31,759 nucleotides of DNA. Origin: a virus. The notes under the pieces are model-generated. The model made no database searches, had not been told where the DNA came from, and saw nothing but the letters and a program-made list of their open reading frames with translations. Shown one piece after another: positions 2,071 through 31,759 of this stretch (position 1 is its first letter; the number at the start of each line of letters is the position of its first letter). A program made the translations under genes and the position numbers. The stretch lies in IMG/VR virus record IMGVR_UViG_3300029182_000058, positions 1 to 31,759 of that record; one strand, written 5' to 3'.

Positions 2071-2084
2071 TGGGAGGGTTGATC

Positions 2085-2495: not shown

Positions 2496-2683
2496 GTGAT
2501 GAGGAGTTATTTACCCGACTGATCTATTACGGCACAGTCCACCTTAACAATAAAGAAGTCGAGGTTTGGCTGATGCCTATAGGATACCTTATGGATCTTT
2601 GGGAATGTCACAAACAGTTTATTGGCATTGCAAAACCCATACTAAACCTATCAATCGATGATGTGATTCCTGCATGGCTTTAG
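2085..2683 (+). CDS. Tail assembly chaperone, long (gpGT-like) frameshift form
   Basis: Reading moves to the -1 frame after the AAC codon that ends at 2480. The -1 frame is open from the CGA codon at 2480 to the TAG at 2681-2683, adding 67 residues (R-G-S-R-V-S-D-E-E-L-F-T-R-L-I-Y-Y-G ... ending I-P-A-W-L), for about 199 residues in all. The extension is hydrophobic and aromatic with W-E-C-H-K-Q-F, as in the T part of gpGT proteins, which contacts the tube protein. The extension has no good start codon or ribosome site of its own, so frameshifting is the only likely way to make it. The 67-codon open extension, the heptamer and the stem-loop are all seen directly; the function is by family knowledge. 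Confidence 0.85.
2474..2520 (+). promoter_or_regulatory. -1 programmed ribosomal frameshift signal
   Basis: The heptamer AAAAAAC (2474-2480) is in the correct phase (A AAA AAC) in the chaperone frame. Five bases later begins a perfect 10-bp stem: AGTCGGGTAA (2486-2495) pairs with TTACCCGACT (2511-2520) across a 15-nt loop. The short form's stop codon (TAA, 2493-2495) lies inside the stem's left arm. This is the classical slippery site plus stimulator arrangement. Confidence 0.9.
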
Positions 2684-2697
2684 TCGTCTCTTTTGCG

Positions 2698-2717
2698 CGT
2701 ATATTAAGGTATATACG
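2698..2717. repeat. Inverted repeat after chaperone gene
   Basis: CGTATAT (2698-2704) and ATATACG (2711-2717) form a perfect 7-bp inverted repeat with a 6-nt loop, 14 bases after the chaperone extension stop. There is no T-run, so it is not a terminator; it may be an RNA processing or protein-binding site. The 173-bp stretch around it (2684-2856) holds no credible gene. Confidence 0.5.
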
Positions 2718-2805
2718 AATCGAAATGATAAACCAATCTTACACTTAGAGGTTTAATGTAACGATGGGACTGTTATATTAAAAATATAAAAAGTTAGATT
2801 ACGCT

Positions 2806-2830
2806 GACACCGAAATATGGTGTCTTTTTT
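2806..2830 (+). terminator. Rho-independent terminator inside the tail operon
   Basis: GACACC (2806-2811) pairs with GGTGTC (2819-2824) over a 7-nt loop and is followed by six T. It lies between the chaperone and the tape-measure gene, 26 bases before the tape-measure start, an unusual place in a late operon. Confidence 0.75.
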
Positions 2831-2856
2831 CATGCCTATTGAGGAGGTGAGGCACT

Positions 2857-11278: not shown

Positions 11279-11346
11279 AACTTGGTGTTTGGATGATAAC
11301 TAGAAATCTTTTGCATGAGAGACTTATTAAAGAAAGGAGGAAAAAC

Positions 11347-12984
11347 ATGGAGACCAATATTTCAAGAAAAATGCACTCTACTGGGGATGACTGCTTTAGA
11401 TTCAGTTCACATAGCAGTAGACCCGTTGAATACAGTGTTGGGAACTTAGCCATTGATGGCCATAAATTAAGAGTTGCCTCATATTGTAGAGTAAGTTCAG
11501 AAGAAGAACTTCAAGTAAATTCACTGGATAATCAGATCGTGCATTACACCAACTACATCAGGTCTAATCCAGAGTGGCAATTTGCCGGTATCTTTTCAGA
11601 CCTAGGAAAATCAGGAACTAGACTAGAGAAGAGAGATGGTTTTAATAAAATGATCCGCTATGCTAAAGCAGGAAAGATGGACTTAATTTTGTGTAAATCC
11701 ATATCAAGATTCGCAAGAAATGTTATGGATACACTGCAGGTAGTGAGGGAACTAAGAGAGAAGAAAATCTTTGTACTTTTTGAAAAAGAGAATCTCTATA
11801 CTGGAGATATGCAGAGTGAATTTATTCTCACCATGCTTGCTGCTACAGCTCAGGAAGAGAGCAGGAGCACTTCTGAAAACATCAGCTGGGCGACTTCAAA
11901 ACGCTTTGAACAGGGAGAAGCAAAATTCTCTAGGATTCTTGGATATAAGAAAGTCAAGGGAGTCCCTTGGGTCATAGACCGGAAAGAAGCTTATATTGTT
12001 CAAGAAGCCTTTGAGGAATGTCTGAATGGGAAAAGCCCTACAGAAATCGCCAGAAAGTTTATTCGCAAAGGTTACCTGAAGGCAAATGGTAGAGAAGATT
12101 GGACGAATGTATCGGTTAAAGGCTTATTAAGCAATGAGCGATATGTTGGAGATGCTCTATGCCAGAAGACTTACACAGAAGATTATTTATCTCATAAAGT
12201 CATGCTCAATGAAGGTCAGAAAACGAAATACTACATCAAGGATCATCACGAGGGGATTGTTGACAGAGATACTTTTGAAAAAGTTCAGAAACTTATAAAA
12301 CCTAGGACAAAAGGGGTGAAGAGAGGTCCTGTGAAGCGTTATGATTTCACAGGAAGAATCAGCTGTGGTGAGTGCGGCGGAAACTTTCATCGCTATCAGC
12401 TTAGAGGAAAAGTCACATGGAGATGCAGCAACCACTTAAAGAGCGCAAGACTCTGCAGTGTAGTTGGAATCCGAGAAGAAACTATAATGAATGCATTAAA
12501 GAAAGCCTTTATTGAGAAACATCATATTGATTCCAAAGCACCTGGTAAAAGACAACTCGTAAAACTTGAGAAAAATCTCCAGAACACTGAAGTGCTTAGG
12601 GATGGAGAACAAAATAGATTGAGACTAGAACTTGAAAAGGCGCTCTTTGCTGAAAGCATGGCAGTCCTAGAAAATACGGATGAGACAGAGCTTGTAAAAC
12701 ACAGACAAAGTGTGGAAAGCGCCATAGCAGAAAGAGAACCTTGGTGGGCGATGGTAGACGCAGATGATTTCTATAGAAAGGATGCGATTTCTGAACTGGA
12801 AAGAATGAAGCAATCATCAAGTCCAATAAAGGATCTCTATAAAAAACTAGAAAATCCGAAATTCTTAAGAGCCTGGATGACACGTGTAGAAGCGGAGTCA
12901 TCTTTTTTATTGAAAGTAACTTGGTTCACCGGAGAGGAAACCAAAATAAATATTAATGAAGGAGGAGATGAGGCATGGCAGTAG
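11347..12984 (+). CDS. Large serine recombinase A (cassette 1)
   Basis: This 545-residue enzyme belongs to the large serine recombinases, which cut and rejoin DNA at specific sites through a 5'-phosphoserine link. The ATG at 11347 follows AAAGGAGGAAAAAC; an in-frame ATG at 11293 lacks a site. The resolvase domain (~41-190) carries the catalytic serine in Y-C-R-V-S (S50), the arginine motif K-S-I-S-R-F-A-R-N and A-Q-E-E-S-R-S-T-S-E-N. The Recombinase domain follows (~205-320), then a zinc ribbon with C340-x2-C343 and C360-x9-C370, a coiled coil (~395-470) and a short beta end. It overlaps recombinase B by 10 bases, so the two are probably made together, as CcrA/CcrB are in SCC elements. Its counterpart is at 23051. 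Confidence 0.95.
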   Translation: METNISRKMHSTGDDCFRFSSHSSRPVEYSVGNLAIDGHKLRVASYCRVSSEEELQVNSLDNQIVHYTNYIRSNPEWQFAGIFSDLGKSGTRLEKRDGFNKMIRYAKAGKMDLILCKSISRFARNVMDTLQVVRELREKKIFVLFEKENLYTGDMQSEFILTMLAATAQEESRSTSENISWATSKRFEQGEAKFSRILGYKKVKGVPWVIDRKEAYIVQEAFEECLNGKSPTEIARKFIRKGYLKANGREDWTNVSVKGLLSNERYVGDALCQKTYTEDYLSHKVMLNEGQKTKYYIKDHHEGIVDRDTFEKVQKLIKPRTKGVKRGPVKRYDFTGRISCGECGGNFHRYQLRGKVTWRCSNHLKSARLCSVVGIREETIMNALKKAFIEKHHIDSKAPGKRQLVKLEKNLQNTEVLRDGEQNRLRLELEKALFAESMAVLENTDETELVKHRQSVESAIAEREPWWAMVDADDFYRKDAISELERMKQSSSPIKDLYKKLENPKFLRAWMTRVEAESSFLLKVTWFTGEETKININEGGDEAWQ

Positions 12985-14660
12985 GACCCGGACAAAGGAT
13001 ATCATCGTCCCGAGTAAGCATCATTCCTGCAAAGATCAGGACACCACGAAATGAGGAGCATTTTGATGGCCAAAAGAAGAAGATAGGCGTTTATGTGAGA
13101 GTATCCACAGACTCAGCCATGCAGGCGACCAGCTATGACATTCAGGTTTCATATTTTAAGGAATATGTTGAGAAAAATCCAAACTGGGAACTTGTAGATA
13201 TCTTTGCAGATGAAGGTCTATCGGGAACCTCAACAAAGAACAGGACAGAGTTCAACAGAATGATAGAGTCTTGTAAGAAGAAGGAGATAGACTACATCAT
13301 CACGAAGTCCATCAGCAGATTTGCAAGAAATACTCTGGACTGTCTTCATTACATCAGAATGCTGAAAAGTCTAGGCATAGGAATATTTTTTCAGAAAGAA
13401 AACTTGGACACCTTAGATAGTAAAAGTGAATTGTTCCTCACAATTTTATCATCCATGGCTCAGGAAGAGTCCCGGTCCATATCTGAAAACACCAAATGGG
13501 GAGTCCAGAAAAGGTTCCAGCAGGGGAAGCCTCATATCCCAACTACCTACTTTCTTGGGTATACAGAGGATGAGGAAGGCAACCTGATCATTGATGAGGA
13601 ACAGGCCAAAATAGTAAGAAGAATATACCGTGAGCTTCTTGCAGGAAAGGGCACTCCCACCATTGCAAAAGAGCTCATGCGAGATCAGATCAGGACCGCC
13701 AGAAACAAGAAAACCTGGACTAGTGATGCGGTCTACAAGATTCTTCGTAACGAAAAGTACAAAGGTGATTGTCTAGCACAGAAGACTGTAACTGTTGACT
13801 TTCTGACTCACGAGCGGGTGAGAAACAAGGACCATCAGCCTCAATACTACATTCGAAATAATCATCCGGCTATCATAAGTGAAGAAGACTGGGAAAAGGT
13901 CCAGGAGGAGTTGACTAGAAGAAATAACATGCTGCGGGATCCAGACAATAAATATCGAATGGTATATAGTGGAATAGCTCCTTTTTCAAACAAGCTATTC
14001 TGTGGTGAATGTGGAAGGCCAGTAACCAGAAGAAGGTTAACCACTTATTATGGGGCAGAGAGAATTGAGACAAAGTTTACTGCATGGCAATGTAGAGTAT
14101 CTTCCAAAAGAGATCCTGAGTTTACAGACTGCAATTGCAGTTACATTTGGGAAGAGGAGCTGGAGAAAGCTTTTATGAAGCTGCTTTATGACTTGAAAAA
14201 CAACCAAGAGGACTTAATGGAGAAAATAAATCTGGCGATCATGGATGTATCCTTGACAGAGGAGGAAGAACGAAGACTGCATGAGCTGGGGAATCAAATC
14301 GATAGAATAACGGATAAGATAACTGAAATGGCATCAAGGTCCTCGGGGTCAAATGAAACCATATATGAAGCCACAATGAGGCATCTAATCTATGAGCAGG
14401 AAATCCTGCAAATGGAATACGACGGTCTTCATGAGAATAAAAAAGAGAGTGAGTACCTTAAAGAAAGTAGGAAGACCCTCATAGAAGAGCTGGAGAAAAT
14501 AGAAAGTCCAAATGAGCCTTTTGACGCAGAGCTTTTCAAACAGACTGTTGAGAAAGGCATTGTGTTTCACAAGTGGCAAGTAGAGCTTCAGCTAAAGTGT
14601 GGAGCTTCCTACAAGGTGAATGTAAAGAGAAGGCCACTGAGAAGTAAGAAGAAAAAATAG
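12975..14660 (+). CDS. Large serine recombinase B (cassette 1)
   Basis: This 561-residue protein is the second large serine recombinase. It starts at ATG behind GAAGGAGGAGATGAGGC, inside the end of recombinase A. The resolvase domain has V-R-V-S-T (catalytic S44), D-E-G-L-S-G-T, K-S-I-S-R-F-A-R-N and A-Q-E-E-S-R-S-I-S-E-N, all intact. It is followed by the Recombinase domain with H-I-P-T-T-Y-F-L-G-Y at its front. The zinc ribbon has C343-x2-C346, then C373, C386 and C388, a longer and slightly different spacing from recombinase A. A coiled coil (~410-510) and a basic tail (R-R-P-L-R-S-K-K-K-K) end the protein. Recombinase A and B are distant relatives, not duplicates; B matches B' at 24657. 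Confidence 0.95.
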   Translation: MAVGPGQRISSSRVSIIPAKIRTPRNEEHFDGQKKKIGVYVRVSTDSAMQATSYDIQVSYFKEYVEKNPNWELVDIFADEGLSGTSTKNRTEFNRMIESCKKKEIDYIITKSISRFARNTLDCLHYIRMLKSLGIGIFFQKENLDTLDSKSELFLTILSSMAQEESRSISENTKWGVQKRFQQGKPHIPTTYFLGYTEDEEGNLIIDEEQAKIVRRIYRELLAGKGTPTIAKELMRDQIRTARNKKTWTSDAVYKILRNEKYKGDCLAQKTVTVDFLTHERVRNKDHQPQYYIRNNHPAIISEEDWEKVQEELTRRNNMLRDPDNKYRMVYSGIAPFSNKLFCGECGRPVTRRRLTTYYGAERIETKFTAWQCRVSSKRDPEFTDCNCSYIWEEELEKAFMKLLYDLKNNQEDLMEKINLAIMDVSLTEEEERRLHELGNQIDRITDKITEMASRSSGSNETIYEATMRHLIYEQEILQMEYDGLHENKKESEYLKESRKTLIEELEKIESPNEPFDAELFKQTVEKGIVFHKWQVELQLKCGASYKVNVKRRPLRSKKKK

Positions 14661-14741
14661 ATCTTAAAGTTAAATTTCCCTTGGATAAACGCCAAAAAAC
14701 GAATAGTAACATAAATAAAATAAGAACTTCTTCCATTCCAC

Positions 14742-14761
14742 AGATAGTACTTGCATTATCT
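14742..14761. promoter_or_regulatory. Conserved dyad between recombinases B and C-D (cassette 1)
   Basis: AGATAGTACTTGCATTATCT lies in the 173-bp gap (14661-14833) between B and the fused gene. Its arms AGATA/TATCT show dyad symmetry around a centre that shares the GTACTTGCA core with the matching gap in cassette 2 (26424-26443); AACATACC further on is also shared. It may be an operator with a promoter for the fused gene, or a recombination site. Nothing else is recognisable in the gap. Confidence 0.5.
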
Positions 14762-14833
14762 CTGGACTAGAGCGATTAATAACATACCTGCTGCCTTAAG
14801 CGGGAATGTACGCAAATGGAAGGAGTTTTTATA

Positions 14834-17800
14834 TTGGAAAGAAAAAAGGTTGAGCTTCATTGGCAACCACCTCAAAAGTTAGCCCTAGGTGAAAATGACG
14901 AGAAGCGTAGGGTTGCTGCATACTGCCGTATCAGTAGAATTGAAGACGATACAAAGCTTAGTTCTCTTGAGAACCAGATGGATTACTATTCAAAGTTAAT
15001 AGTGGCGAATCCAGATCATAAGCTTATAGGGATTTACTATGATAGCGGAATATCAGGATTAACCATTGATAAGCGACCAGGGTTTAAAAGGCTTATAAGA
15101 CATTGCCAAGAAGGGAAAATTGACCTTGTCATCACAAAAAGCATTTCCAGGTTTTCTAGAAACGCCAAGGATCTTTTAGAGACTGTGGAATTGCTGAAAG
15201 AGCATAATGTGACAGTCTTCTTTGAGAAAGAGAAGATCGACTCTTCCAAAACAAGACACAAGTTTTTCCTAACAGCTTTAGCGGCAGTCTACCAGCAAGA
15301 ATCCCTGACCATATCAGAGCATGTAAAATGGGGGTTTGAAAAAAAGAATAGAATGGGTGAGCCAGTTATGTTAAATCAATTTGGCTACCGAGTTGTTGAA
15401 AGAAATGGGGTAAAGACCTTCAGGATTGTTGAGGAAGAAGCACAAGTTATAAGGACTATTTTTGAAGAATTTCTATTAGGAAAAACACCTCACCAAATTG
15501 GGCTGATGCTTACAGAAGAAGGTATAAAGAGCCCAGGAGGGAAAGAGCTGTGGGCTAGTGCTAGTGTGAAAAACGTACTCACAAATTCAAACTATACAGG
15601 GGACAGGCTCACGAATAAAGAAACGAGTATTTTCCTGGAGAAAAAATCAATGATTAACGATGGTCATGAAAATCGCTATCTGATAAAGAATACACACCCA
15701 GCGATTATAGATGAAGTTACCTTCAATAAGGTTCAGGAGATTTTTGGAAGTAGGCCTAAGAGGGAAAAAAGTGCGAATGTGAAATATCCACTTTCGCAAA
15801 GAATTACTTGTGGCTGCTGCGGGTGGTATTTTCATCGCTCCAAACGAAAAACAAACTCTATATGGAAGTGTGGCTTAAACTCTAAAAATAAGAACAACTG
15901 CAGTTTAGGTGTGCCTTTTAGTGAATCAACATTATTAGAAATGATGATAAGAGCGATGAAGGTCCGATATGATTTTGAAAAGCCAGGTGCCCTAAAACAC
16001 ATGAAAGATAACCTCGAGAGAGTTAATCAAAATGACAGGTTTGAACTTCATAGGATGAGTCATTTAATGAGCTTGATTCTAGCTAAAGAAGAGCTGGCGG
16101 AATCTGACCATAGAACGTACGAATATAAAATGGAAAGAGTCAAGGAACTTGAGAATACAATTGTTGCCTTTGAGGACTTGGCTACAAAAATTGAAGAAGA
16201 TCGGATATACCGGGTGTCAGCATTAGAAAGACTTAAAGGAGTGGAGAATGTAGAAAATTTTATGGACATGGCAGATATACCCTTATTGAGAGCATGGGTC
16301 ATGGAGCTATCTATCTTAACGGAACAAGACTTTCAAATTGTATGGATGGACAACGATGTAACAGAAATAGGTGAGTTTAAAAGAAGCTATGATAAAAATG
16401 CTATGGAACCTAGCAATAACAAAAAACAAAAGGCGGGAATCGAAGTAGAACATGAGGGTGCATCGAAGTTCACCATTCCAAAGAAAGATGAGTCTATAGC
16501 TAAAACAGTACAATCAAAAGAAGGGAGTGAGGAACAGGTGGAAGTGCTGGAGCTTAGAAACAAACCGCCAAATGAATTAATAAACAAAATCAAAAAGAAG
16601 CTTAAGGACGAATCACAAGGCATCATTAAAATTGAACCGAAAAAGAAAATGAGAAAAATAAGAGTCGGCGTTTATGCCAGGGTAAGTACCAGAGAACCAG
16701 ATCAACTTGGTTCACTTGAAGCCCAAGTGGCATACTACACATTCGCTCTTCTTAAGGATTCTAATAACCAGTTAGTGAGAATATATGCAGATGAAGGTGT
16801 ATCTGGGACCAATGCTGAAAAGCGCGCTGGATTTCAGAAAATGATAAGAGACTGCGAAAACGGGAAGGTTGACCGTATTATCACAAAGTCTATTTCCAGA
16901 TTTGCAAGGAACACTGTAGATGCCCTTGATTATGTAAGAAAGCTTAAAGAACATAATGTATCCATCTACTTCGAGAAAGAGGGGATCGATACTGCCAGCG
17001 AAGATGGAGAAATCCTCTTGACCGTCTACAGCGCACTTGCGCAGGAAGAAAGTAGAAGCCTAGGGGAAAGTATCTCTTGGGGAAAGAAGGCCTATGCCAA
17101 ACGAGGTATGGTGGGGCATAGCATGAGGACCTACGGGTATGATTTCAACAAAGACAGGACCTGGTACATTGTTGAGGATGAGTCGAAAGTTGTACAGTCT
17201 ATCTTTGAAAGGTGCATAGATGGCTTAAGTGCAGTGCAGATTTGTAAAGACTTAACTATAGAAGGTATTCCTACCATGAAAAAGAAAGCCTCTTGGAATC
17301 CCAAAACAGTGTCTACAATCTTAAATAATATCAACTATACCGGAGATTTACTCTACCAGAAAAGATACACGCAAGATACCTTTACGAGCAGATCTAAATT
17401 GAACTTTGGACAAACATCTCAGGTACTGATAGAAGAGCATCATCCTGCGATTATTGATAAGACTACCTGGGATAAGGCCCAGTGGGCATTAGATAAGAGG
17501 AGACCTAAGAAAAGTGCTAAGGCTAAGGTTTACCATGAGCAACTAGAATTCTTTTCCAGATTTATCTGCTCAGAATGTGGTAATTTTTACTTTCATGTTA
17601 CCAGAAAAACTGAGGCTGGCATCAAACATAGATGGAGATGCAAAGTGGCATTGAGAAAAGATGCTTTGATTACCTGTGATTCACCATATATTGAAGAAGA
17701 AGAAATTAAAGCACTATTCATGCAAATGCTAGCTGGCATAAAGAAGGATAAAATTTTCATATCTCAACTGAACAAGCAGATAGAGGATAAAAAACTGACT

Positions 17801-18166
17801 GAGAATGAGAAGATACTTTTAAAATATTATGAAGAAGAAAACCAGAAAGTATATTTAGAACTGTACAAAGTAGTAGAAGATGGAACAAAGAGTGGTGAAG
17901 ATACAACTGAAATCAAAAGATATACGGACTCTATTATGGAAACCCAAGACATGATCAATGAGCTGAATGATAAAGAAGATGCTCATCGATTCTTATTAAA
18001 AGAAAAGACTTGGCTTTTCAAAGAACTGGAGAATATCGGAAATGAAGAGGGAGCGCTTTATAGGGATGACATCTTTAAGAGAATTATCAAGAATGGTGTC
18101 ATCCATCCTGACAACAGCATAACCTTCCATCTGATTTTTGGTGTTTCAAGACACATAAATAGGTAA
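14834..18166 (+). CDS. Double-length serine recombinase, C and D fused (cassette 1)
   Basis: This 1110-residue protein is two complete large serine recombinases in one chain. The TTG at 14834 is chosen because AAGGAG-TTTTTATA precedes it exactly as in cassette 2; an ATG at 14816 lies upstream of that ribosome site. The C half (1-~545) has Y-C-R-I-S (S34), K-S-I-S-R-F-S-R-N, a Recombinase domain and a zinc ribbon C326-x2-C329...C346-x9-C356. A charged linker (~545-610) follows. The D half has Y-A-R-V-S-T (S618), D-E-G-V-S-G-T, R-F-A-R-N, A-Q-E-E-S-R-S and a zinc ribbon from C912-x2-C915. Both catalytic serines are kept. In the C half, the usual E-S-R has become Q-Q-E-S-L. GTG at 16538 could start D alone as a 542-residue enzyme. 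Confidence 0.93.
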   Translation: MERKKVELHWQPPQKLALGENDEKRRVAAYCRISRIEDDTKLSSLENQMDYYSKLIVANPDHKLIGIYYDSGISGLTIDKRPGFKRLIRHCQEGKIDLVITKSISRFSRNAKDLLETVELLKEHNVTVFFEKEKIDSSKTRHKFFLTALAAVYQQESLTISEHVKWGFEKKNRMGEPVMLNQFGYRVVERNGVKTFRIVEEEAQVIRTIFEEFLLGKTPHQIGLMLTEEGIKSPGGKELWASASVKNVLTNSNYTGDRLTNKETSIFLEKKSMINDGHENRYLIKNTHPAIIDEVTFNKVQEIFGSRPKREKSANVKYPLSQRITCGCCGWYFHRSKRKTNSIWKCGLNSKNKNNCSLGVPFSESTLLEMMIRAMKVRYDFEKPGALKHMKDNLERVNQNDRFELHRMSHLMSLILAKEELAESDHRTYEYKMERVKELENTIVAFEDLATKIEEDRIYRVSALERLKGVENVENFMDMADIPLLRAWVMELSILTEQDFQIVWMDNDVTEIGEFKRSYDKNAMEPSNNKKQKAGIEVEHEGASKFTIPKKDESIAKTVQSKEGSEEQVEVLELRNKPPNELINKIKKKLKDESQGIIKIEPKKKMRKIRVGVYARVSTREPDQLGSLEAQVAYYTFALLKDSNNQLVRIYADEGVSGTNAEKRAGFQKMIRDCENGKVDRIITKSISRFARNTVDALDYVRKLKEHNVSIYFEKEGIDTASEDGEILLTVYSALAQEESRSLGESISWGKKAYAKRGMVGHSMRTYGYDFNKDRTWYIVEDESKVVQSIFERCIDGLSAVQICKDLTIEGIPTMKKKASWNPKTVSTILNNINYTGDLLYQKRYTQDTFTSRSKLNFGQTSQVLIEEHHPAIIDKTTWDKAQWALDKRRPKKSAKAKVYHEQLEFFSRFICSECGNFYFHVTRKTEAGIKHRWRCKVALRKDALITCDSPYIEEEEIKALFMQMLAGIKKDKIFISQLNKQIEDKKLTENEKILLKYYEEENQKVYLELYKVVEDGTKSGEDTTEIKRYTDSIMETQDMINELNDKEDAHRFLLKEKTWLFKELENIGNEEGALYRDDIFKRIIKNGVIHPDNSITFHLIFGVSRHINR
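16521..16540 (+). promoter_or_regulatory. Internal ribosome site and GTG start for the D half (cassette 1)
   Basis: Inside the linker, GGGAGTGAGG (16523-16532) lies 5 bases before an in-frame GTG (16538-16540). The GTGAGG core is the same kind of site used by the holin and abiEi genes here. It would give a 542-residue D recombinase. It may be a relic of two genes or a working second start. Confidence 0.5.
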
Positions 18167-18176: not shown

Positions 18177-18230
18177 AAACCCGCTGAGTAGCCTGATTGT
18201 ATTGATCAAGCCTCTTGGTGGGTTTATTTT
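18177..18230 (+). terminator. Terminator after fused recombinase (cassette 1)
   Basis: AAACCCGCTGAG (18177-18188) pairs with CTCTTGGTGGGTTT (to 18225) around an inner hairpin, followed by a T-rich run. The same AAACCC...GGGTTT style of terminator appears after abiEii and beside the Abi_2 gene. Confidence 0.75.
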
Positions 18231-18286: not shown

Positions 18287-18348
18287 TTTTTATAAATGGA
18301 ACGATTTTCTTTACTTCTGAAGAATAACGTGCTAAAATTAAAAAAAGA
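18287..18348 (+). repeat. Repeat motif copy 1 (before abiE)
   Basis: A 61-62-bp AT-rich motif starting TTTTTATAAATGGAACG and ending CTAAAATTAAAAAAAG. It contains a dyad, TTCTTTACTTCTGAAGAA, and matches the copy 93 bp downstream at about 48 of 61 bases. It lies upstream of the TATAAT box for abiE. Confidence 0.85.
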
Positions 18349-18372
18349 TGAATAACAACTAAGCAGAACGGG

Positions 18373-18378
18373 TATAAT
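18373..18378 (+). promoter_or_regulatory. Probable -10 box for abiE
   Basis: A perfect TATAAT lies between the two repeat copies, about 75 bases before the abiEi start. The -35 (TGAATA, 18-bp spacer) is weak, as expected for a promoter that is controlled. Transcription would start at the beginning of the second repeat. Confidence 0.55.
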
Positions 18379-18379
18379 A

Positions 18380-18441
18380 TTTTTATAAACGGAACGTTAT
18401 TCTTTAAATACGAAGAAAATAATGGCAAAATTAAAAAAAGT
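18380..18441 (+). repeat. Repeat motif copy 2 (abiEi leader)
   Basis: The second copy of the 61-bp motif, with TTCTTTAAATACGAAGAA as its dyad and AAAATTAAAAAAAG at its end. It ends at the abiEi ribosome site. The third copy, at 30429, matches this one at about 38 of 47 bases over its core and lies after the other fused recombinase gene. Confidence 0.85.
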
Positions 18442-23050: not shown

Positions 23051-24670
23051 ATGAATCAAGCAAGAGTTCAGGTAGTACCGGTTCAGCAACCTAGCGTTTC
23101 CGTGATAAATAATGTTGATTTACACACAAGCATGGGACAGGTAAAACCACATAAACCTAGAGTGGCATCATACTGCAGAGTGAGTTCTGAAGAAGAACTT
23201 CAGCTAGGCTCCCTTGAAAACCAAATCATTCATTACACCAATTACATTAGATCAAAACCTGAGTGGCTTTATGCAGGAGTCTATTCAGATAAAGGTAAGT
23301 CAGGAACGGATATGTCCAAGCGAACAGGCTTTAATCGGATGATTAGAAAGGCTATGAATGGAGAAATTGATATTATCATTTGTAAGTCTATTTCTAGATT
23401 TGCCCGTAATGTTGTGGATACGCTGGATATTGTGAGACAGCTTACTGAAAAGGGCGTCCAGGTCATCTTCGAAAAAGAGAGACTGAACACCAAAGACATA
23501 ACCAGTTCACTACTAATAAAGATTTTGGCCACATTTGCAGAAGAAGAGAGCCGGAGTACTTCAGAAAATATTGAATGGGCTTTGAGAAAACGGTTTGAAA
23601 GAGGTGAGGTGGTTGCGGCTCAACTCTTTGGTTATAAGACGAAGAAAAACAAGGAGTGGGAGATTGTTGAAAAAGAAGCGGCCATAGTAAGAGAAGCCTA
23701 TGCAATGTTTCTTTCTGGCTATAATCTGACAGATATTGCTCAGCATTTCATTCGTAGAGGATACAAGAAGCGCTCCGGAGAGATTGATTGGACATCTTCT
23801 AATATAAGCAGCTTTCTTACAAACGAAAGATATTGTGGAGATGCTCTTAGCAGAAAAACATGTACTTTGGATTTTAGATCTCATAAGACAGTAGTCAATA
23901 GGGGACATAAGCCTCAGTATTATGTTGAGGACCATCATGAAGGGATTGTGCTAAAAGAAGATTTTCAAAAGGTCCAGGAGATTATGAATGAGAACAAAAC
24001 CACCCAATCAAATAAAGGAAGATACAAACGCTCTGCTATTACCAGCAGAATTGTCTGCGCCAGCTGTGGAAAGAACTATCATCGCTTCGGTCAGAAGGGG
24101 AAAATAACCAGATGGCGATGTTCGTCAAATGCAAAGAGCGGACTTTTATGCAAGGCTCAACCTATTGAGGAGACTAAGATAGAAGATCTTCTCATAGAAG
24201 GCTTTGAAAAACGTTATGGCATGGATCAGAGAACAAATGATGGCTTGCTGATTAAACAGCTTATAAAAGAGTTATCAAGTGCAGAAACCGTAAGAGAAAG
24301 AGAGCAAAATCTGTTGAGGGTGGAGCTTGAAAAGTGCCTGATTGCTGAAAACAATGCTATCTTAAAAAATCTAGATGTAGAAGACATCAAGGCTAAAAGA
24401 AAAGAAGTCGAAGAAACAATCGCTGAAAAAACAAAGTTATGGGAGGCTTTTGACAAAGACCATGTCTTTAGAGAAGCATCCTTGAATAAGCTTAAAACCC
24501 TAAAGGGTTCAGATAAAGCCATTTATAAAATACTAGATATCTCTTTTATAAGAGCGTGGGTGATTCACATTACAGTGGAGTCACCTTTTTTATTTACCAT
24601 TAAGTGGATTGATGGAGAAGAAACCGTTGTCGGTCAATTTAGAGGAGGAATGTACTATGACTCAAAATAG
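23051..24670 (+). CDS. Large serine recombinase A' (cassette 2)
   Basis: This 539-residue enzyme is the counterpart of recombinase A, with about the same length and roughly half to two thirds of residues alike in the resolvase domain by eye. It starts at ATG after AAAGGAGGAAAAGACG. The resolvase domain has Y-C-R-V-S (S45), K-S-I-S-R-F-A-R-N and A-E-E-E-S-R-S-T-S-E-N; the zinc ribbon is C336-x2-C339 and C357-x9-C367, the same spacing as in A. A coiled coil (~395-470) precedes the short C-terminal beta part. It overlaps B' by 14 bases. No damage is visible, so it is probably functional, but the divergence suggests a different target sequence from A. Confidence 0.95.
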   Translation: MNQARVQVVPVQQPSVSVINNVDLHTSMGQVKPHKPRVASYCRVSSEEELQLGSLENQIIHYTNYIRSKPEWLYAGVYSDKGKSGTDMSKRTGFNRMIRKAMNGEIDIIICKSISRFARNVVDTLDIVRQLTEKGVQVIFEKERLNTKDITSSLLIKILATFAEEESRSTSENIEWALRKRFERGEVVAAQLFGYKTKKNKEWEIVEKEAAIVREAYAMFLSGYNLTDIAQHFIRRGYKKRSGEIDWTSSNISSFLTNERYCGDALSRKTCTLDFRSHKTVVNRGHKPQYYVEDHHEGIVLKEDFQKVQEIMNENKTTQSNKGRYKRSAITSRIVCASCGKNYHRFGQKGKITRWRCSSNAKSGLLCKAQPIEETKIEDLLIEGFEKRYGMDQRTNDGLLIKQLIKELSSAETVREREQNLLRVELEKCLIAENNAILKNLDVEDIKAKRKEVEETIAEKTKLWEAFDKDHVFREASLNKLKTLKGSDKAIYKILDISFIRAWVIHITVESPFLFTIKWIDGEETVVGQFRGGMYYDSK

Positions 24671-26354
24671 AAACTCTTCAGCGATGAATCCTCGGGTTCG
24701 GGTAATCCCTGCGAATATGAACATGCAAAGAAGAGGGGAAGGAGAAGAAGAACCAAAGGTTAAAGTTGCCGCCTACGCAAGGGTATCCACCCTTGAAGAA
24801 GAACAGCAGTCAAGTTATCAGCTGCAGGTTTCCTACTTTGAAGAATACATTGAAAGAAAACCGGACTGGGAACTTTATAAAGTGTACAGTGACGAGGGTG
24901 TAACAGGGACGAATACAAAGTACCGAACCGGCTTTAACCAGATGATTAAGGATGCCAAAGAAGGGAAATTTGACTACATCATTACCAAATCCATCAGCCG
25001 ATTTGCACGAAATACTTTAGACTGTCTGACCTATGTGAGGATGCTTAAAAACCTAGACAAACCTGTGGGAATTATATTCGATAAAGAGGGAATTAACACA
25101 TTGGATTCCCAATCAGAAACGATTCTGGTTGTCATCGCAAGCGTTATGGAGGAAGAAAGTAGAACCATAAGCGCCAATGTAAGCTGGGGTGTTCAGAAGA
25201 GATTTTCAAGAGGAATACCACACATACCAACAACCTACTTTTTAGGCTATGATGAGGACGAAGATGGCAACCTAATCATTAATGAAGAAGAAGCCAAGAT
25301 TGTAAGAAGAATATATCGAGAGTTTCTAAGCGGGAAAGGAACACCACTTATTGCCAAAGGGCTAACCAAGGATAAAGTAAAAACCGCTAGGGGAAACACC
25401 AAATGGACCAGTGATTCGGTTCTCAAGCTGATAAAAAATGAAAAATTCTGTGGCCATGCACTGTGCCAGAAGTCAGTTACTCTAGACCCTTTAACCCATA
25501 AGCGGGTGAGAAATAAAAACCACAAACCACAGTATTTCATACGAAACAATCACCCACCGATTATTTCAGAGGAAGATTGGAACGCGGCTCAGAAGGAGCT
25601 AGAACGCAGAAGTAGAATGCGCCATGATCCAGATGGGAAGTACCGAAGATGCTACAGCAACACAGCTCCTTTTTCTAACATGCTATTTTGTGGGGAGTGT
25701 GGGGTTCCGGTGCACAGAAGACGCCTTACCTCAAAGAAGAATGGCCAATCTTATAAATTCACGGTGTGGCAGTGTAGGGTATCAGCGATGAAAATGGAAG
25801 CGGATTATGAATGCCATACAAAGTATATATGGGAAGAAGTCATTGAAAGAGCTTACAATGAAATGCTTCTGAAAATGACAAAAGAAATCGACCAGATTCG
25901 AATGGAAGGTGAAGCGGCCATAAAAGAGGTCAGCCTATCTGAAGAAGAAAATGCACGATTAGAAGAAGTGGAAGAAATCATTGACAGAATCAGCGATCAA
26001 ATTACTGAAATGTCTATGAGAGAAAGCATCACCAACGATCCCATCTATGACGCCACCCTTAGAAATCTTATTTACGAGTCTCAAATTTACCAACAAGAAC
26101 ATGAAAACCTCCTGAAGAACAAAGAGGAAAGCATCTTTATGAAGAAGAACCTGGATATTCTTATTGAGTATCTACAGGGGCTGCAAGACTTCGAAACCTT
26201 CGATGCGAAAATGTTTAGAGAGACTGTTGAACGGGGTCTCATCTATGATGATTACCAAATAGAGTTTATCTTTAAATGTGGGGTCAAGCGAAAGGCCCTC
26301 GGCTGGAGGAGAGGAAAGGACCCGGTGGAACCGCTGAACTTAGATACTCTTTAA
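24657..26354 (+). CDS. Large serine recombinase B' (cassette 2)
   Basis: This 565-residue enzyme is the counterpart of recombinase B. The ATG at 24657 is chosen over an in-frame ATG at 24609 because AGAGGAGGAATGTACT precedes it and the overlap with A' then matches cassette 1. It has A-R-V-S-T (S44), D-E-G-V-T-G-T, K-S-I-S-R-F-A-R-N, and the same H-I-P-T-T-Y-F-L-G-Y entry to the Recombinase domain as B. In the E-x-S-R region it reads M-E-E-E-S-R-T-I-S. The zinc ribbon begins C345-x2-C348 and includes W-Q-C-R-V and E-C-H, with the long spacing typical of B. A coiled coil (~415-520) follows. Confidence 0.95.
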   Translation: MTQNRNSSAMNPRVRVIPANMNMQRRGEGEEEPKVKVAAYARVSTLEEEQQSSYQLQVSYFEEYIERKPDWELYKVYSDEGVTGTNTKYRTGFNQMIKDAKEGKFDYIITKSISRFARNTLDCLTYVRMLKNLDKPVGIIFDKEGINTLDSQSETILVVIASVMEEESRTISANVSWGVQKRFSRGIPHIPTTYFLGYDEDEDGNLIINEEEAKIVRRIYREFLSGKGTPLIAKGLTKDKVKTARGNTKWTSDSVLKLIKNEKFCGHALCQKSVTLDPLTHKRVRNKNHKPQYFIRNNHPPIISEEDWNAAQKELERRSRMRHDPDGKYRRCYSNTAPFSNMLFCGECGVPVHRRRLTSKKNGQSYKFTVWQCRVSAMKMEADYECHTKYIWEEVIERAYNEMLLKMTKEIDQIRMEGEAAIKEVSLSEEENARLEEVEEIIDRISDQITEMSMRESITNDPIYDATLRNLIYESQIYQQEHENLLKNKEESIFMKKNLDILIEYLQGLQDFETFDAKMFRETVERGLIYDDYQIEFIFKCGVKRKALGWRRGKDPVEPLNLDTL

Positions 26355-26423
26355 AAAATAGATTCCGAAGCCGTAATAAAAACTGAATACCTAGTGTACT
26401 TAAAATACTCCTTTGACCATTAG

Positions 26424-26443
26424 AGATTGTACTTGCAATATGT
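26424..26443. promoter_or_regulatory. Conserved dyad between recombinases B' and C'-D' (cassette 2)
   Basis: AGATTGTACTTGCAATATGT shares the GTACTTGCA core with 14742 and again is flanked by dyad arms (ATTG/CAAT), although the arm bases differ. TTGACC (26412-26417), a 17-bp spacer and CAATAT (26435-26440) would make a promoter here, placing the dyad across the -10. The rest of the 147-bp gap (26355-26501) shows nothing else. Confidence 0.5.
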
Positions 26444-26501
26444 TTCATACAGAGGGAACATACCAACAAGCGTAATCTTTATGAGGAAAGGAGTTTTTTA
26501 A

Positions 26502-29500
26502 ATGGACCAAAGAGATAAGGCCATGTGGGTACACACACTGTGGGATCCGCTGGACGAGATGCATCAAAGTCCACTAAACAGCAAGAAAGAAGGTATCAGA
26601 GTTGCAGCTTACTGCAGAATCAGTAAGGGGAACACCAATTATAGATCCCTTGAAAATCAAGTGAGCTATTACAGCAACTACATCTACAATAAACCAAATT
26701 GGAAATTTGTCGGAGTGTATATCGATAATCAAATATCCGGTGGAACCATCGAACACCGAAATGGATTCAAGCGAATGCTTCGTCATGCCAGGGAAGGAAA
26801 GATCGATCTAATTCTTACAAAAAGCATATCCAGATTTTCAAGAAACACAAAGGAAATCTTAGAAGTGCTTCAACAGTTAAAAGAAAGTGGCACAACTGTA
26901 TATTTTGAACGTGAAGGCGTGGAGGTTTCTAAGGGTCTGAGTTCACTGGTCTTAGAGACTCATGCAGCCATGGCCCAAGATTTCATCGAAGGGGTTTCAA
27001 ACCTTGTGAAGTTTTCTTATCAGAAACGCCTGAATGAAGGACGACCTTACTTTCATGAGATGTACGGCTATGATTTAGTTGAGCCAGGTGGCAAAGACAT
27101 GGTGAAGATTAATGAAGAGGAAGCAGAAGTAGTTAGGTGGATTTTTAATCAGTTTATTGGTGGCGCCACTTATGCTGATATCACTAGAGAACTTATACAT
27201 CGAGGAATTAAAACAAAAAAGGGAAATGATCGGTGGGCCCATACACAAATTAGAAAAATCATTAATGCGATAGCCTATACAGGAAACAAAAGGGCAAAGG
27301 CACAAACCAAGGACCTTTTTACAGGAAAGATTACTGGCAGCGGTCCATATAAGGAGCAATATTTAATTGAAAATAGTCATCCGGCGATAATATCCATGGA
27401 TGTATTTAATAGAGCTCAGGCGAGGGTTGAGAAAAACAAGAGAACTAAAAAGCAAATCAGAACGCCAATAAGTAACCCGCTGAAATATAGAGTATTTTGT
27501 GGTCGATGCGGAAAATTGGTGCGAAGAAAAAATGACTATAGATATGGATGTGCCTATACCAATGCCAGCGTGAAGCTTTGTGATTTAGAACTTATAAAAA
27601 CTTATGACCTTGTTGCTATGGGGTTAAGAGGCTTATTCGAACGCATGCTGGGGTTAACCATTATTGCAACTAAAAACAGAAAAGACATCACATATGAAAT
27701 GGTAGATCCCCTTGGCAGAAGTGAGAAGACTTTAAAAGAAGATTTTCGTCTGATGCTTAGGGATCTTGAGAGAATCCTCGTCAGGGTCAACCAGAATGAC
27801 CATTTTGAATTTCAGCGCCTAAAGTATTTTACTGACATCGAAATTGCCAAAAGGCAGAATCAGATAGAGCTGATTGAACAGCTAGAAGATGAGTATTCCT
27901 CTTTTGAAGAAAAAGTTGGTCGTATTGAAGATGATAGAGAGTATCGAAATGATGCTCTTGTTTGGTTAAAGACCATAAGGGGCATAGACCATTTTATTAA
28001 TGCTGCAACCATTGAAATGGTTAGAGCGTGGATGACAAAACTGACAATCTATTCAGGGTCAGCTTATGTTATCGAGTGGATTGATGAAAAAACAACGACG
28101 ATTGGGCAAGAAGAAATTCCTGGTATCGTAGAAGCTGCAGAAAACAAACGATTAGAAAGGGAAAGCCGACTAAAGAAACAAGAGAAACCTTTATTAAATG
28201 ATCTTATTAACTTTGAAGCTGCAGAAGATTCTTTAAAAGATAATGAAAATTCTAAAGCCCGGAGAAAGGAGGAGCTCTTAGTGGAAGCAACAGCGATTAC
28301 AGCAGACTCAAAGAGTCTGGCAAAAATAAACAACCAGAATAAACTTATGCGCGACGTGGTTGTCCTTGAGCGTGGACTAAGTATTAAAGACATAGGCGAT
28401 TTAAAGAAGAATATTCTTAAGAACAGGATGAGCCAGCTTAATCAGGAAGAAAAGAAGAAACTGAGGGTTGCAGCGTACTGCAGAGTATCAACAGAGATGG
28501 ATGAGCAAAAGCTCTCTCTGCAAACCCAGCTTGCATACTATAACTACAAAATACTTTCGAATCCTTTATGGGAGCTTGCTGGAATCTATGCAGATGAAGG
28601 GGTATCAGGAACTATAACCGAGCACAGGGATGATTTTAATCGGATGATTGAAGACGCGAAAAAAGGTAAGATCGATATGATCATTACAAAATCCATCTCT
28701 CGATTCAGTAGGAATGTGGTTGATGTTTTGGGAACATTAAAGACGCTCCATGAGTTACAACCTGCTTGTGTATGCTACTTTGAAAAAGAAAACTTGAAGA
28801 GCAATGATCCAAACTCTTCATTAATTTTATCGCTAATGGCGACCGTCGCAGAAGAAGAGATTGTTTCCTTATCCAATAGCATCACCTGGGGTGTGCAAAG
28901 TCTTGCTCAAAGAGGAACCATCAGTAGAAGGACAGATATGTATGGATACACCATTGATAAGAACAGGGAGTGGCACATTGTTGAGGAAGAGGCAGAAGCT
29001 ATTCGATTGATGTATCAATTATTCATAGAAGGTAAAAATATTTTTGAGATTGTTGAACATCTAAATGAGCTGGGGATAAAGAGTCCAAAGGGCAGTGACT
29101 ATTGGAGTTACAATACGATCCGAGAAATATTGAGAAATGAAAAGTATCACGGTGATTATGAATTTCAAAAATACTACACAAAGGTTGCCGGGAGCGTAAG
29201 AAAAGCCAATAATGGCCAGGTTCCAAAGTATTATATTGAGGAACATCATCAGGCCATCATTGATCGAGAGATATTTGAAAATGCACAAAAGGTTTTCGAA
29301 GATAGGAAGAGAGATCCCGTTATGAATGAAAAGAAAGACGGGACTGCAGGTAGAGCGGTTTACTACAAGAAGTTCACATGTGCTGAATGTGGTCATATTA
29401 TTTCTAGGTATGGAAGTTCTACCTATGATTCCAGAGAAGGAAGTACTTGGCGGTGTTACAATTCCTCAAAAACAACAGGTTCAACGTGTGATGTAAGCAC

Positions 29501-30350
29501 ATATTTCATTGAAAGATATATGGATTACTATTTTGTAGATACACTAAGGAAAATCAAAACAAGCGAAGACTTCAGGCAACAGATAAAAGCCCATTTGAGA
29601 GAACTGGATTTAACGGAAAAAGAACTGCGGCATAAAGAGGACCTTGAAATGCAAATGGAAACATTAAATCAAGAGCTTTATAAGGCGGTGGATACGGAGA
29701 TCCAAAAGAACGGTAAAAATACACAGCTGATCAACCAGATAACGGATGATATCATTCAATTGAGGGAGAAGCACTACAAGTATATCGAGCGGTTAGAACA
29801 GTTACAGGAGGATAGAGAGCGGTTGGAGAAGCTTCTGCAATACTGCGAAAAGATGAAGCCTTTCTCTTTAAAAACATTCCATAATATGAGACCGCGAATC
29901 AAGCCTGGTGATAGCGTATATTCCAAGACCAACAGCGCAAGAGATGTTTCATACATGGACTTGGAAGGAGAAGATCACTTCCCTGAAGAAGTTTTTATTG
30001 AGCATGTGTTGAGCGCAACCATTGATAAAGCCGGGGAGATCAAGTTTAAATTTGCAGAGGGTGTAGAGTTTGGTTCGGGATTAGACTATGAGAAGTACAA
30101 AGAACGGTTTGAAAAACAAAAGAAGAAAATCCAAATAGAGGAGCTTTTAATCTCCGCTGAAGTACAAGAGGTGAAAGAGTACTGTAAAGAATACAGAAAA
30201 CCAAAGGAAATTCGAGAGCATTTGGGCATTAAGAGTGAAATTTCATATCGGAAAAGAATCCAGGAACCTCTTTATAAAGCGGGGAAGTTGATGGTTAATG
30301 ACGCAAAAGTAACTCAACTAAGAATGTATAGATGGGCAGATGAGGAGTAG
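26502..30350 (+). CDS. Double-length serine recombinase C'-D' with winged-helix tail (cassette 2)
   Basis: This 1282-residue protein is the counterpart of the fused gene at 14834. It starts at ATG behind GAAAGGAGTTTTTTAA. The C' half has Y-C-R-I-S (S41), K-S-I-S-R-F-S-R-N and a zinc ribbon from C333-x2-C336; its usual E-E-S-R motif is replaced by Q-D-F-I-E-G-V-S. A charged linker (~555-650) follows, then the D' half with Y-C-R-V-S-T (S663), R-F-S-R-N, E-E-E-I-V-S-L-S in place of E-E-S-R-S, and a zinc ribbon from C960-x2-C963. Residues ~1190-1282 extend beyond the end seen in cassette 1 and look like a winged helix (E-V-K-E-Y-C, P-K-E-I-R-E-H-L-G, Y-R-K-R-I, P-L-Y-K-A-G-K-L). An internal start at 28281 would give a 689-residue D'. 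Confidence 0.92.
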   Translation: MDQRDKAMWVHTLWDPLDEMHQSPLNSKKEGIRVAAYCRISKGNTNYRSLENQVSYYSNYIYNKPNWKFVGVYIDNQISGGTIEHRNGFKRMLRHAREGKIDLILTKSISRFSRNTKEILEVLQQLKESGTTVYFEREGVEVSKGLSSLVLETHAAMAQDFIEGVSNLVKFSYQKRLNEGRPYFHEMYGYDLVEPGGKDMVKINEEEAEVVRWIFNQFIGGATYADITRELIHRGIKTKKGNDRWAHTQIRKIINAIAYTGNKRAKAQTKDLFTGKITGSGPYKEQYLIENSHPAIISMDVFNRAQARVEKNKRTKKQIRTPISNPLKYRVFCGRCGKLVRRKNDYRYGCAYTNASVKLCDLELIKTYDLVAMGLRGLFERMLGLTIIATKNRKDITYEMVDPLGRSEKTLKEDFRLMLRDLERILVRVNQNDHFEFQRLKYFTDIEIAKRQNQIELIEQLEDEYSSFEEKVGRIEDDREYRNDALVWLKTIRGIDHFINAATIEMVRAWMTKLTIYSGSAYVIEWIDEKTTTIGQEEIPGIVEAAENKRLERESRLKKQEKPLLNDLINFEAAEDSLKDNENSKARRKEELLVEATAITADSKSLAKINNQNKLMRDVVVLERGLSIKDIGDLKKNILKNRMSQLNQEEKKKLRVAAYCRVSTEMDEQKLSLQTQLAYYNYKILSNPLWELAGIYADEGVSGTITEHRDDFNRMIEDAKKGKIDMIITKSISRFSRNVVDVLGTLKTLHELQPACVCYFEKENLKSNDPNSSLILSLMATVAEEEIVSLSNSITWGVQSLAQRGTISRRTDMYGYTIDKNREWHIVEEEAEAIRLMYQLFIEGKNIFEIVEHLNELGIKSPKGSDYWSYNTIREILRNEKYHGDYEFQKYYTKVAGSVRKANNGQVPKYYIEEHHQAIIDREIFENAQKVFEDRKRDPVMNEKKDGTAGRAVYYKKFTCAECGHIISRYGSSTYDSREGSTWRCYNSSKTTGSTCDVSTYFIERYMDYYFVDTLRKIKTSEDFRQQIKAHLRELDLTEKELRHKEDLEMQMETLNQELYKAVDTEIQKNGKNTQLINQITDDIIQLREKHYKYIERLEQLQEDRERLEKLLQYCEKMKPFSLKTFHNMRPRIKPGDSVYSKTNSARDVSYMDLEGEDHFPEEVFIEHVLSATIDKAGEIKFKFAEGVEFGSGLDYEKYKERFEKQKKKIQIEELLISAEVQEVKEYCKEYRKPKEIREHLGIKSEISYRKRIQEPLYKAGKLMVNDAKVTQLRMYRWADEE
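28266..28283 (+). promoter_or_regulatory. Internal ribosome site and GTG start for the D' half (cassette 2)
   Basis: AAGGAGGAG (28267-28275) followed by an in-frame GTG (28281-28283), V594 of the fused protein. AAGGAGG is a near-perfect Shine-Dalgarno and, with cassette 1, this is the second independent fused gene with a start signal at the same structural boundary. Confidence 0.6.
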
Positions 30351-30381
30351 GTGTGTAAAGAAAACCGATGTTTTTTTAGAT

Positions 30382-30423
30382 CCTAAGTTATAACCTAAGA
30401 TGCCACCTAAGCCATCACCTAAG
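30382..30423. repeat. Four CCTAAG hexamers at exact 12-bp spacing
   Basis: CCTAAG occurs at 30382, 30394, 30406 and 30418, each separated by six variable bases. The array lies between the fused recombinase stop and the third 61-bp repeat copy; cassette 1 has no such array. Confidence 0.85.
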
Positions 30424-30428
30424 TTCGA

Positions 30429-30490
30429 TTTTTTAATAATGTCACGTTATCCTCCATATATGAAGAAAAACATGCCAAAATTAAAAACAG
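30429..30490 (+). repeat. Repeat motif copy 3 (after C'-D')
   Basis: Matches the copies at 18287 and 18380 over about 61 bp: ACGTTAT, GAAGAAAA, ATG and CAAAATTAAAAA are kept in register. Its dyad TCCTCCATATATGAAGAA has a CATATATG centre. It lies 79 bp past the recombinase stop, whereas copy 1 lies 120 bp past the other one. Confidence 0.8.
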
Positions 30491-30568
30491 CCATTTTCCA
30501 CTTCACAAACTGAATAAAGAAGATCGTTCCCCAGTGACCCATAGACCTGAGGTTTTATCAGCAATAGA

Positions 30569-30621
30569 AAAACCCACTGAGTTGGCAGATAACAGTTATC
30601 TACCACTTGGTGGTTATTTTT
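30569..30621. terminator. Bidirectional terminator between C'-D' and Abi_2
   Basis: AACCCACTGAGT (30571-30582) pairs with ACTTGGTGGTT (30605-30615); inside, AGATAAC/GTTATCT forms a perfect 7-bp hairpin. T-runs occur on both sides (GAAAAACCC on the left gives T's on the minus strand), so it can end transcripts from both converging genes. The rest of the 30351-30619 gap holds the CCTAAG array and repeat copy 3. Confidence 0.75.
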
Positions 30622-31759
30622 ATTTGGTTTTTATAAGTTCATACCAATTGAAATTCATTCCCATGTTCCGTTCGATTTCTTCAATATTTATTGTGCTCAA
30701 TTTATCTTCTAGAGATTTGAATTCAAAGCGAATTCCCTTAATAAGATCATTAAGCTGTTGCTTGTCCATAAACAGTGATAAAGAGAAAATTAGAGAATAA
30801 ATTCCGCTTCGAGCATTCAATCGTTTACTTCTTTGAGATGAATTTAATCTTCTCCTACTAGCTGGATTAACTGCATGAGGCAATTTTTGCCCGAAACTCA
30901 TGAAAGAATCATCAATAGGAACTCTAATCTTTGAAAGATAGAATCTTTCGTTATGAGCACAAGTATTTCTAAATAAACTTAGTATTTGCAAAACACGAGA
31001 GGCGTTTATAATATCTAAGTCATCAGATAAGTGGGGGAAATTATTAATTCCTAAAGATTTAATCATATGGAGCTGAACATCTTTCTTTTGCAATGTAAAT
31101 AAGTGGCTGACATTTCCAAAAGTTAAGACATTCATTAATATCCACATTGGTATATAACCATGCTGCTCTGAGTAGGATTTAATGGAATCATTTTTATTTT
31201 TTCTTTGCTGCCCGATTGTTCGGTACACGGTAGAAACATAATTATCATATGCAGAATGCCTATCTAAAGTAGAACTTTTACCATTTGGTCGAGTTCTATG
31301 TACTGTTGTGCTGACAATTCCATAACTATCAATATTATGTACACTATAAGAAGTAGACAAATCATAGTACTTTCTTCTGAGATATTCACTATCTCTATGG
31401 AGACTAGATTTTTCAATATCTGAGTTATCAGGATTCCCGTTTAAATGGTAATTGTAGAAGGATTGGACTATTTGGTTTTTAATCATTTCTTCTACCCTTA
31501 AGATTTCCTTCAAAAAAATAAGTCGAAGATTTGCATCAAAAATTAGTAAAGCTTCAAGTTCACTTAGTCGGGTGCCATTTTTATACTTTTCAGTAGTGCT
31601 GGATCCTTGGTAGAGAAAAGGATCTTTATAAGCGTTAACTAAGTTGTAATAGTTGTATTTTCTGAGAAGTTCTTTTTCTTGACTGCCATTAGGGATAGTC
31701 ATGTTACGACTTCTAAGTATTTCAATTCTATCGCTATGTACTGAAAAATATTTTTCCAA
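30620..31759 (-). CDS. Abi_2 (AbiD/AbiF-type) abortive infection protein, partial
   Basis: This minus-strand frame encodes at least 379 residues and runs off the right edge of the window, so the true start may be missing (the first codon in view is TTG). The Abi_2 family is recognisable from Y-N-Y-Y-N-L-V-N-A-Y-K-D-P-F near the N-terminus, P-M-W-I-L-M-N-V-L-T-F-G-N-V-S-H-L-F (~204-221) and the R-N-T-C-A-H motif (R264-H269 of the visible part). R-N-x-x-x-H is the HEPN ribonuclease signature, so the protein probably cuts RNA when a phage is sensed. It is the only clear minus-strand gene and faces the recombinases. It occupies the cargo place that AbiE has in cassette 1. The insert at ~110-190 is longer than in minimal family members. 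Confidence 0.85.
   Translation of the reverse strand: MEKYFSVHSDRIEILRSRNMTIPNGSQEKELLRKYNYYNLVNAYKDPFLYQGSSTTEKYKNGTRLSELEALLIFDANLRLIFLKEILRVEEMIKNQIVQSFYNYHLNGNPDNSDIEKSSLHRDSEYLRRKYYDLSTSYSVHNIDSYGIVSTTVHRTRPNGKSSTLDRHSAYDNYVSTVYRTIGQQRKNKNDSIKSYSEQHGYIPMWILMNVLTFGNVSHLFTLQKKDVQLHMIKSLGINNFPHLSDDLDIINASRVLQILSLFRNTCAHNERFYLSKIRVPIDDSFMSFGQKLPHAVNPASRRRLNSSQRSKRLNARSGIYSLIFSLSLFMDKQQLNDLIKGIRFEFKSLEDKLSTINIEEIERNMGMNFNWYELIKTK

Follow-up and report, generated by a model that had tools for sequence, protein, structure and literature searches.

The gin element of Bacillus cereus carries three serine recombinase genes, girA, girB and girC, together with a restriction-modification system, and an imperfect inverted repeat is part of its att sites (PMC5595907). 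As described there, girC lies apart from girAB and, of the three recombinases, GirC alone is needed for excision, together with GirX. For serine integrases, the integrase alone is reported to suffice for recombination between attP and attB (PMC4111918). In the SARP/AfsR boxes, winged-helix regulators of the OmpR type read short direct repeats spaced by 11 or 22 bp (PMC10936776).

Here we describe a short direct-repeat array behind a cluster of three serine recombinase genes in a virus record of 31,759 bases, the whole of which is referred to below as the window. Three adjacent serine recombinase genes lie behind an endolysin gene (a name taken from an annotated relative) twice, as triad A (11293-18166) and triad B (23051-30350); for triad A the reading was by eye, with its third gene also entering the tree described below. 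Because the Resolvase and Recombinase domains of the third recombinase of triad B each occur in two stretches, we take this protein to be a fusion of two recombinases. Each triad has a long third gene, and between the triads are AbiE genes and a second holin/endolysin-like block (the holin and tail names were assigned by eye). Parts of a second triad are present in L003, L004 and L006, and two triads in G005. Phage recombinase trios of this kind carry changing abortive-infection and toxin-antitoxin genes, and what is at stake is the mechanism by which this cargo is exchanged; a conserved strip next to the recombinase gene offers a defined, testable handle on it.

The CCTAAG array and its distribution

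A reading made from the sequence alone had picked out CCTAAG four times at exact 12-bp steps, and we confirm the four starts (30382, 30394, 30406 and 30418); Tandem Repeats Finder returns the same array as 30382-30425, with period 12 and 3.7 copies. Its reported location also proved correct: the array is 3' of the recombinase stop (30350), after a gap of 31 bp, and 6 bp before a 61-bp repeat. CCTAAG alone is not enriched in the window (9 observed vs 13.5 expected). CCTAAG-N6-CCTAAG, in turn, has three matches in the window vs none in 100 dinucleotide shuffles, and the array is the sole case in the window of a hexamer present four times at a constant spacing of 7-30 bp, an arrangement that appeared in 0 of 60 first-order Markov simulations. 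Since neither the shuffles nor the simulations gave such an array, its supposed improbability is borne out and an origin by chance was ruled out.

Two further statements of the sequence-only reading have to be given up. The copies were said to lie on nearly the same face of the helix, but by simple arithmetic 12-bp steps at 10.5 bp per turn advance by ~51 degrees each, and copies 1 and 4 are ~154 degrees apart and hence not on one face. The array was also placed beside the cargo boundary, but the cargo changes between relatives at ~30617-30644, some 200 bp away. The array folded as RNA no better than shuffles (z 0.43), the palindrome was weak as an RNA hairpin (z -1.24), and no known RNA family reached the gathering score in the window and seven loci. 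Sigma-70-like sites, the only type covered by the promoter test, numbered 0 in 30200-30900 vs 2.3 expected in shuffles.

Table 1. Features of the window discussed in the text
Feature	Position	Strand	Remarks
Further palindrome copy	18287..18347		no array
Further palindrome copy, upstream of AbiEi	18380..18440		no array
First serine recombinase	23051..24670	+	triad B; domains tested
Second serine recombinase	24609..26354	+	triad B; domains tested
Third serine recombinase, 1282 aa	26502..30350	+	Resolvase and Recombinase domains, two stretches each
C-terminal domain, predicted winged helix	30150..30347	+	candidate binder of the array, inferred
CCTAAG hexamer 1	30382..30387	+	invariant in 6/6 aligned loci
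CCTAAG hexamer 2	30394..30399	+	invariant in 6/6 aligned loci
CCTAAG hexamer 3	30406..30411	+	invariant in 6/6 aligned loci
CCTAAG hexamer 4	30418..30423	+	CCAAAG in L004; unchanged in other 5/6 loci
61-bp imperfect palindrome ("site")	30430..30490		dyad axis near 30458/30459; plus- and minus-strand profile hits
Conserved block hp1, CCCCAGTGACC..GACCTGAGG	30526..30556	+	partly self-complementary; 6/31 columns variable
Terminator-like hairpin hp2, AAACCCACTGAGT...ACTTGGTGG and T run	30569..30614	+	at cargo change point
Cargo: Abi_2-type gene	30620..31759	-	runs to window end

Relatives of the third recombinase comprised nine viral-contig loci (second half of the protein) and six genome-contig loci (whole protein). 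A search of relatives had been proposed together with the original observation, and far from being absent from all of them, the array is found at the same position in five (L003, L004, L006, L008 and L012), giving six loci with the window. In L004 the fourth copy reads CCAAAG and the other three are perfect, in L006 the steps are 11, 11 and 12 bp, and L008 has a perfect array behind a recombinase that is read as two ORFs; at least two kinds of cargo lie behind the arrays. L007, whose third recombinase is open and 77% identical, has the palindrome and lacks the array; L005 (89% identical, recombinase read as two ORFs) has neither behind the stop. No array was present in L013, L014, L015 and L017 within the stretch of up to 330 bp read behind the match, and L016 has a single CCTAAG before the palindrome. 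In a tree built from the C-terminal parts of 25 third recombinases, L005, L008 and L012 not among them, the four rows with the array form one clade (support 100/99) with L007 as its sister, and L210/L146, which have a degenerate array, branch outside L013. Among the rows tested, the array is restricted to one recombinase clade; it is not general to the recombinase family.

Wider searches gave little. Querying phage records with 30340-30640 gave a single match of 33 bp (E 0.08), which lies outside the array. The array region matched 0 of 398 genomes of G008's class, a search that had no positive control and so carries little weight, and 11 of 391 genomes of G416's class, all with short matches that mostly fall in the hairpins or the right half of the palindrome, none of them across two hexamers; the G701 match (27 bp) takes in the leader together with hexamer 1 and the linker that follows it. 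Among the six genomes behind L012-L017, CCTAAG x3 occurs in G007, the genome of L012, only. No such array was found among the open-access papers listed. L073 was considered as a relative and rejected, its MSPK repeats being at a contig end and unrelated. We also note that L013 (an Alkalibacterium contig) and PV036459, a related phage record with its taxon given as Ca. Heliusvirales, encode a third recombinase that is 54% identical; their cargo ORFs measure 362 aa, judged by eye to be methyltransferase-like, and 1209 aa, and neither has a palindrome profile hit.

Constraint on the hexamers and a possible coding origin

When the six loci are aligned, 1 of 24 hexamer columns is variable vs 11 of 24 linker columns (Fisher one-sided 9e-4), and the contrast persists with the window, L004 and L006 only (1 vs 9 of 24, p 0.005); as the sequences are related, these p-values are optimistic. 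The upstream gene has 343 fourfold columns, of which 141 are variable (33 of 64 in its last quarter), a level that the linkers approximately share and below which the hexamers fall (binomial 5e-5). When the unit is cut in each of its twelve six-phase frames, no frame has as few variable columns as CCTAAG. In all 15 pairs, which are non-independent, identity is higher over the array than at fourfold sites. The leader before the array has 19 of 31 columns variable; the array as a whole (12/48) is no more conserved than the arms of the palindrome (12/50) and less so than hp1 (6/31), and the signal of constraint thus comes from the hexamer-linker contrast, in 24 + 24 columns of six related sequences. 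Homogenisation fails to explain the identical hexamers because the linkers differ between units within one array. The near-invariance of the hexamers while the linkers drift therefore points to constraint on the DNA words themselves, and the array is best read as direct repeats that bind a protein. The array is real, small, clade-specific and constrained as DNA, and it is probably protein-binding.

Variable columns are distributed over the codon positions as 20/18/17, with no third-position bias. Single-nucleotide indels are present in L006, the window, L003 and L004, and the steps of L006 are incompatible with any single reading frame. As judged from these alignments, the array is without codon-type constraint in the six loci.

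A somewhat unlikely explanation is that the array is an inert minisatellite, left over from a four-amino-acid peptide repeat of a lost cargo gene, either PKxS or of the TPQ/TTQ type in which CAA has become TAA, and drifting without function. The period of 12 equals four codons. At least 119 IMG/VR stretches have CCTAAG x3 at 12 bp; among the 119 listed, 109 have the array within a mechanical ORF (60 aa or more), 62 read it as PKxx, and the 10 outside such ORFs include L072 and L082, both from contigs of this family. In L138/L210 and L146, a small gene block is followed by TPQ/TTQ-type 12-bp repeats (read by eye), then, ~100 bp downstream of these, by a degenerate CCTAAG array, and then by the same palindrome; in L210 and L146 the TPQ/TTQ-type repeats are not part of long ORFs, and the units of the degenerate array in L210 are of 12 and 10 bp. 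The SLFN_AlbA_2 cargo protein of L006 has a linker, TPQATPQATHQATHQA, made from 12-bp repeats; this coding repeat is at L006:2770-2840 in the ORF 1633-3039, just ahead of a Fic-like_C domain. The mean similarity of the array units to these repeat units is higher than in column-permuted controls (p 0.015), but significance is not reached when the best-matching single unit is taken (p 0.19). Neutral decay moreover predicts equal rates, but the hexamers have been kept and the linkers have not, and third codon positions show no bias. The earlier suggestion that the array is the remains of a short peptide repeat can be retained as a possible origin, given the repeats in L138/L210 and L146, although the array of the six loci lacks codon-type constraint. 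A coding origin with constraint acquired later is possible, and the array may derive from decayed 12-bp peptide-repeat DNA that was subsequently put to use.

Palindrome, hairpins and cargo

A profile of the 61-bp palindrome has hits on both strands, the best minus-strand hit being in L012 (E 3e-8); a scan of L009-L011, which were scanned only, gave none. The arms of the palindrome are conserved but its centre varies (6 of 8 columns in the six loci), so that it looks like the dyadic site of a dimeric protein. Recombining sites would not usually vary at a crossover dinucleotide that they have in common, and the variable centre therefore argues against such a shared dinucleotide here. When palindrome sites were reduced to the 24 with different cores, at least three CCTAAG are present within 110 bp upstream in six, one or two in three (L138/L210, L146 and L016) and none in 15, including L007, against a background of 0.03 per 110 bp; as 15 of 24 distinct sites lack CCTAAG in this interval, a general part for the hexamers in recombination is unlikely. 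Separately, two palindrome copies ~93 bp apart lie directly upstream of AbiEi-type ORFs in the window (18287-18440), L142, L148 and L149, and these pairs could be AbiEi operators or recombination sites.

The cargo consists of AbiEi/AbiEii behind triad A and an Abi_2 gene behind triad B; elsewhere it includes an M78 peptidase gene (L003 and L007, with similar ORFs in L008 and L012) and SLFN_AlbA_2 (L006). A possible further cargo pair, of DUF6557 and metallophosphoesterase genes, is situated between the third recombinase and the palindrome at L210:12399-13732. The window and L006 have cargo in common and are alike past 30620; L003, L008 and L012 diverge from the window after hp2. Since the divergence of cargo begins after hp2, the array is on the fixed side of the exchange. 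This bears on the original proposal of cooperative protein binding at an element end: an array that is non-random, recurs by the same palindrome and has DNA-constrained hexamers fits binding, but a place at an element end is not supported, as the cargo changes at the downstream hairpin.

When ten matches to hp2 were read, seven started ~5-15 bp after a recombinase ORF stop and the remaining three ~75 bp after it, with a palindrome in between. The hairpin AACCCACTGAGTnGnnnGAT...ATCnnnnnACTTGGTGGGTT, or a variant of it, is found in the window at 18177-18225 and 30569-30614 and in L007, L014, L015, L016 and L214-L221. It stands behind the third recombinase even in 34-42% identical relatives, at the change of cargo, and what is kept is its sequence, not pairing alone; it is a candidate terminator or a candidate recombination site of ~47 bp. 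L227 and L229 have matches to the hp1/hp2 stretch beside cargo-like ORFs (those of L227 resemble the M78 pair of L003), and within the 3 kb fetched no ORF was recognised by eye as a recombinase, as if cargo were travelling with the hairpin. No empty site or recombination product was found; tandem triads with palindromes were seen.

A putative binding array and its relation to known systems

The C-terminal domain of the third recombinase is predicted by AlphaFold to form a winged helix (mean pLDDT 74.9). VIA-align superimposes the model on the C-terminal part of a Fic protein (4rgl) with a Z of 8.9 and 2.3 A over 66 residues, and the fold matches also include many folds of the ArsR and MarR types; these matches are only moderately good, and having a fold in common does not establish function. 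Foldseek returned no match for the domain at E<=0.001, and Pfam none of relevance for the C-terminus in the window. Fic-like_C was rejected as a Pfam assignment for the window's third recombinase: the real hits are to the third recombinase of L006 (L006:57-701) and to the SLFN cargo, and the likeness is at the level of fold only. The C-terminus is a natural candidate binder of the array because the array is directly behind its gene.

We propose, with confidence that stands about midway, that the four CCTAAG form a direct-repeat array of protein-binding half-sites in the untranslated 3' flank of the three-gene serine-recombinase cluster, beside the palindrome. Consistent with this, the direct repeats follow one another at about a helical turn, in four copies with 12-bp steps (11, 11 and 12 in L006), and the repeat words are conserved above the linkers (1/24 vs 11/24). 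Several observations count against it: the sister L007 has the palindrome and an open recombinase but no array, and 15 of 24 sites are without CCTAAG; L005 lacks both array and palindrome; the array of L008 is intact though its recombinase is two ORFs; and copies 1 and 4 are off one helix face. If the proposal is correct, a DNA-binding protein would occupy the CCTAAG words side by side and might thereby anchor or regulate a complex at the neighbouring palindrome in this lineage. The likeliest binder would be the third recombinase, whose gene ends 31 bp before the array, through its predicted winged-helix C-terminus, with a partner protein as the alternative.

A stronger version, which we consider improbable, would make the array an obligatory docking arm of a serine-recombinase reaction at the palindrome, by analogy with arm-type accessory sites. 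The array does adjoin the palindrome, the two are co-conserved, and a winged helix is predicted at the recombinase C-terminus; against this, 15 of 24 palindromes, including that of the sister L007, have no nearby CCTAAG, the centre of the palindrome is variable, and neither a recombination product nor an empty site was found. Similarly speculative, and improbable in our estimation, is a model in which the winged helix of the fused recombinase would read the CCTAAG strip behind its own gene, tether the enzyme to the palindrome, and bias which tandem palindrome or defence cargo recombines in this lineage. That some loci still translate a short protein across the array (frame PKLSPKMPPKPSPK...) is a very remote possibility indeed, for although L008 is open over the 75 codons tested and L012 has a 78-aa ORF with a GTG start right behind the recombinase stop, that ORF has no Pfam match at E 0.01, and stops in the PK frame within up to 75 codons (0 in L008, 1 in L012, 4 in the window, 4 in L003, 2 in L004 and 5 in L006, hence in five of six loci), 1-nt indels and the codon-position counts (20/18/17) all argue against it.

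As a putative binding array, the CCTAAG repeats resemble the SARP/AfsR operators in consisting of short direct repeats about one helical turn apart, and they differ from the operators described in that account in their 12-bp steps (11 in one relative), in their four copies, in a location in a 3' flank without a sigma-70-like site, and in having only a candidate for a binder (PMC10936776). With coding minisatellites for PKxx or TPQx linkers they share the 12-bp period and similar words, but they are without codon-type constraint and the conserved part is the hexamer; if the strip is not read, it would be a clear case of a decayed coding repeat passing for a regulatory array. Like gin, the locus suggests a mobile element with three serine recombinase genes; unlike in gin, the three genes are adjacent, the third is a fusion of two, and the cluster is behind a phage endolysin, and the portion of the gin account available to us mentions no array (PMC5595907). 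The arm-type sites of lambda attP likewise are extra binding sites (putative ones in our case) beside a core site, but as set out in PMC4111918 they belong to tyrosine integrases. Should the recombinase prove to read the strip, docking sites like those of lambda-type integrases would exist for serine recombinases too, in a lineage-specific form.
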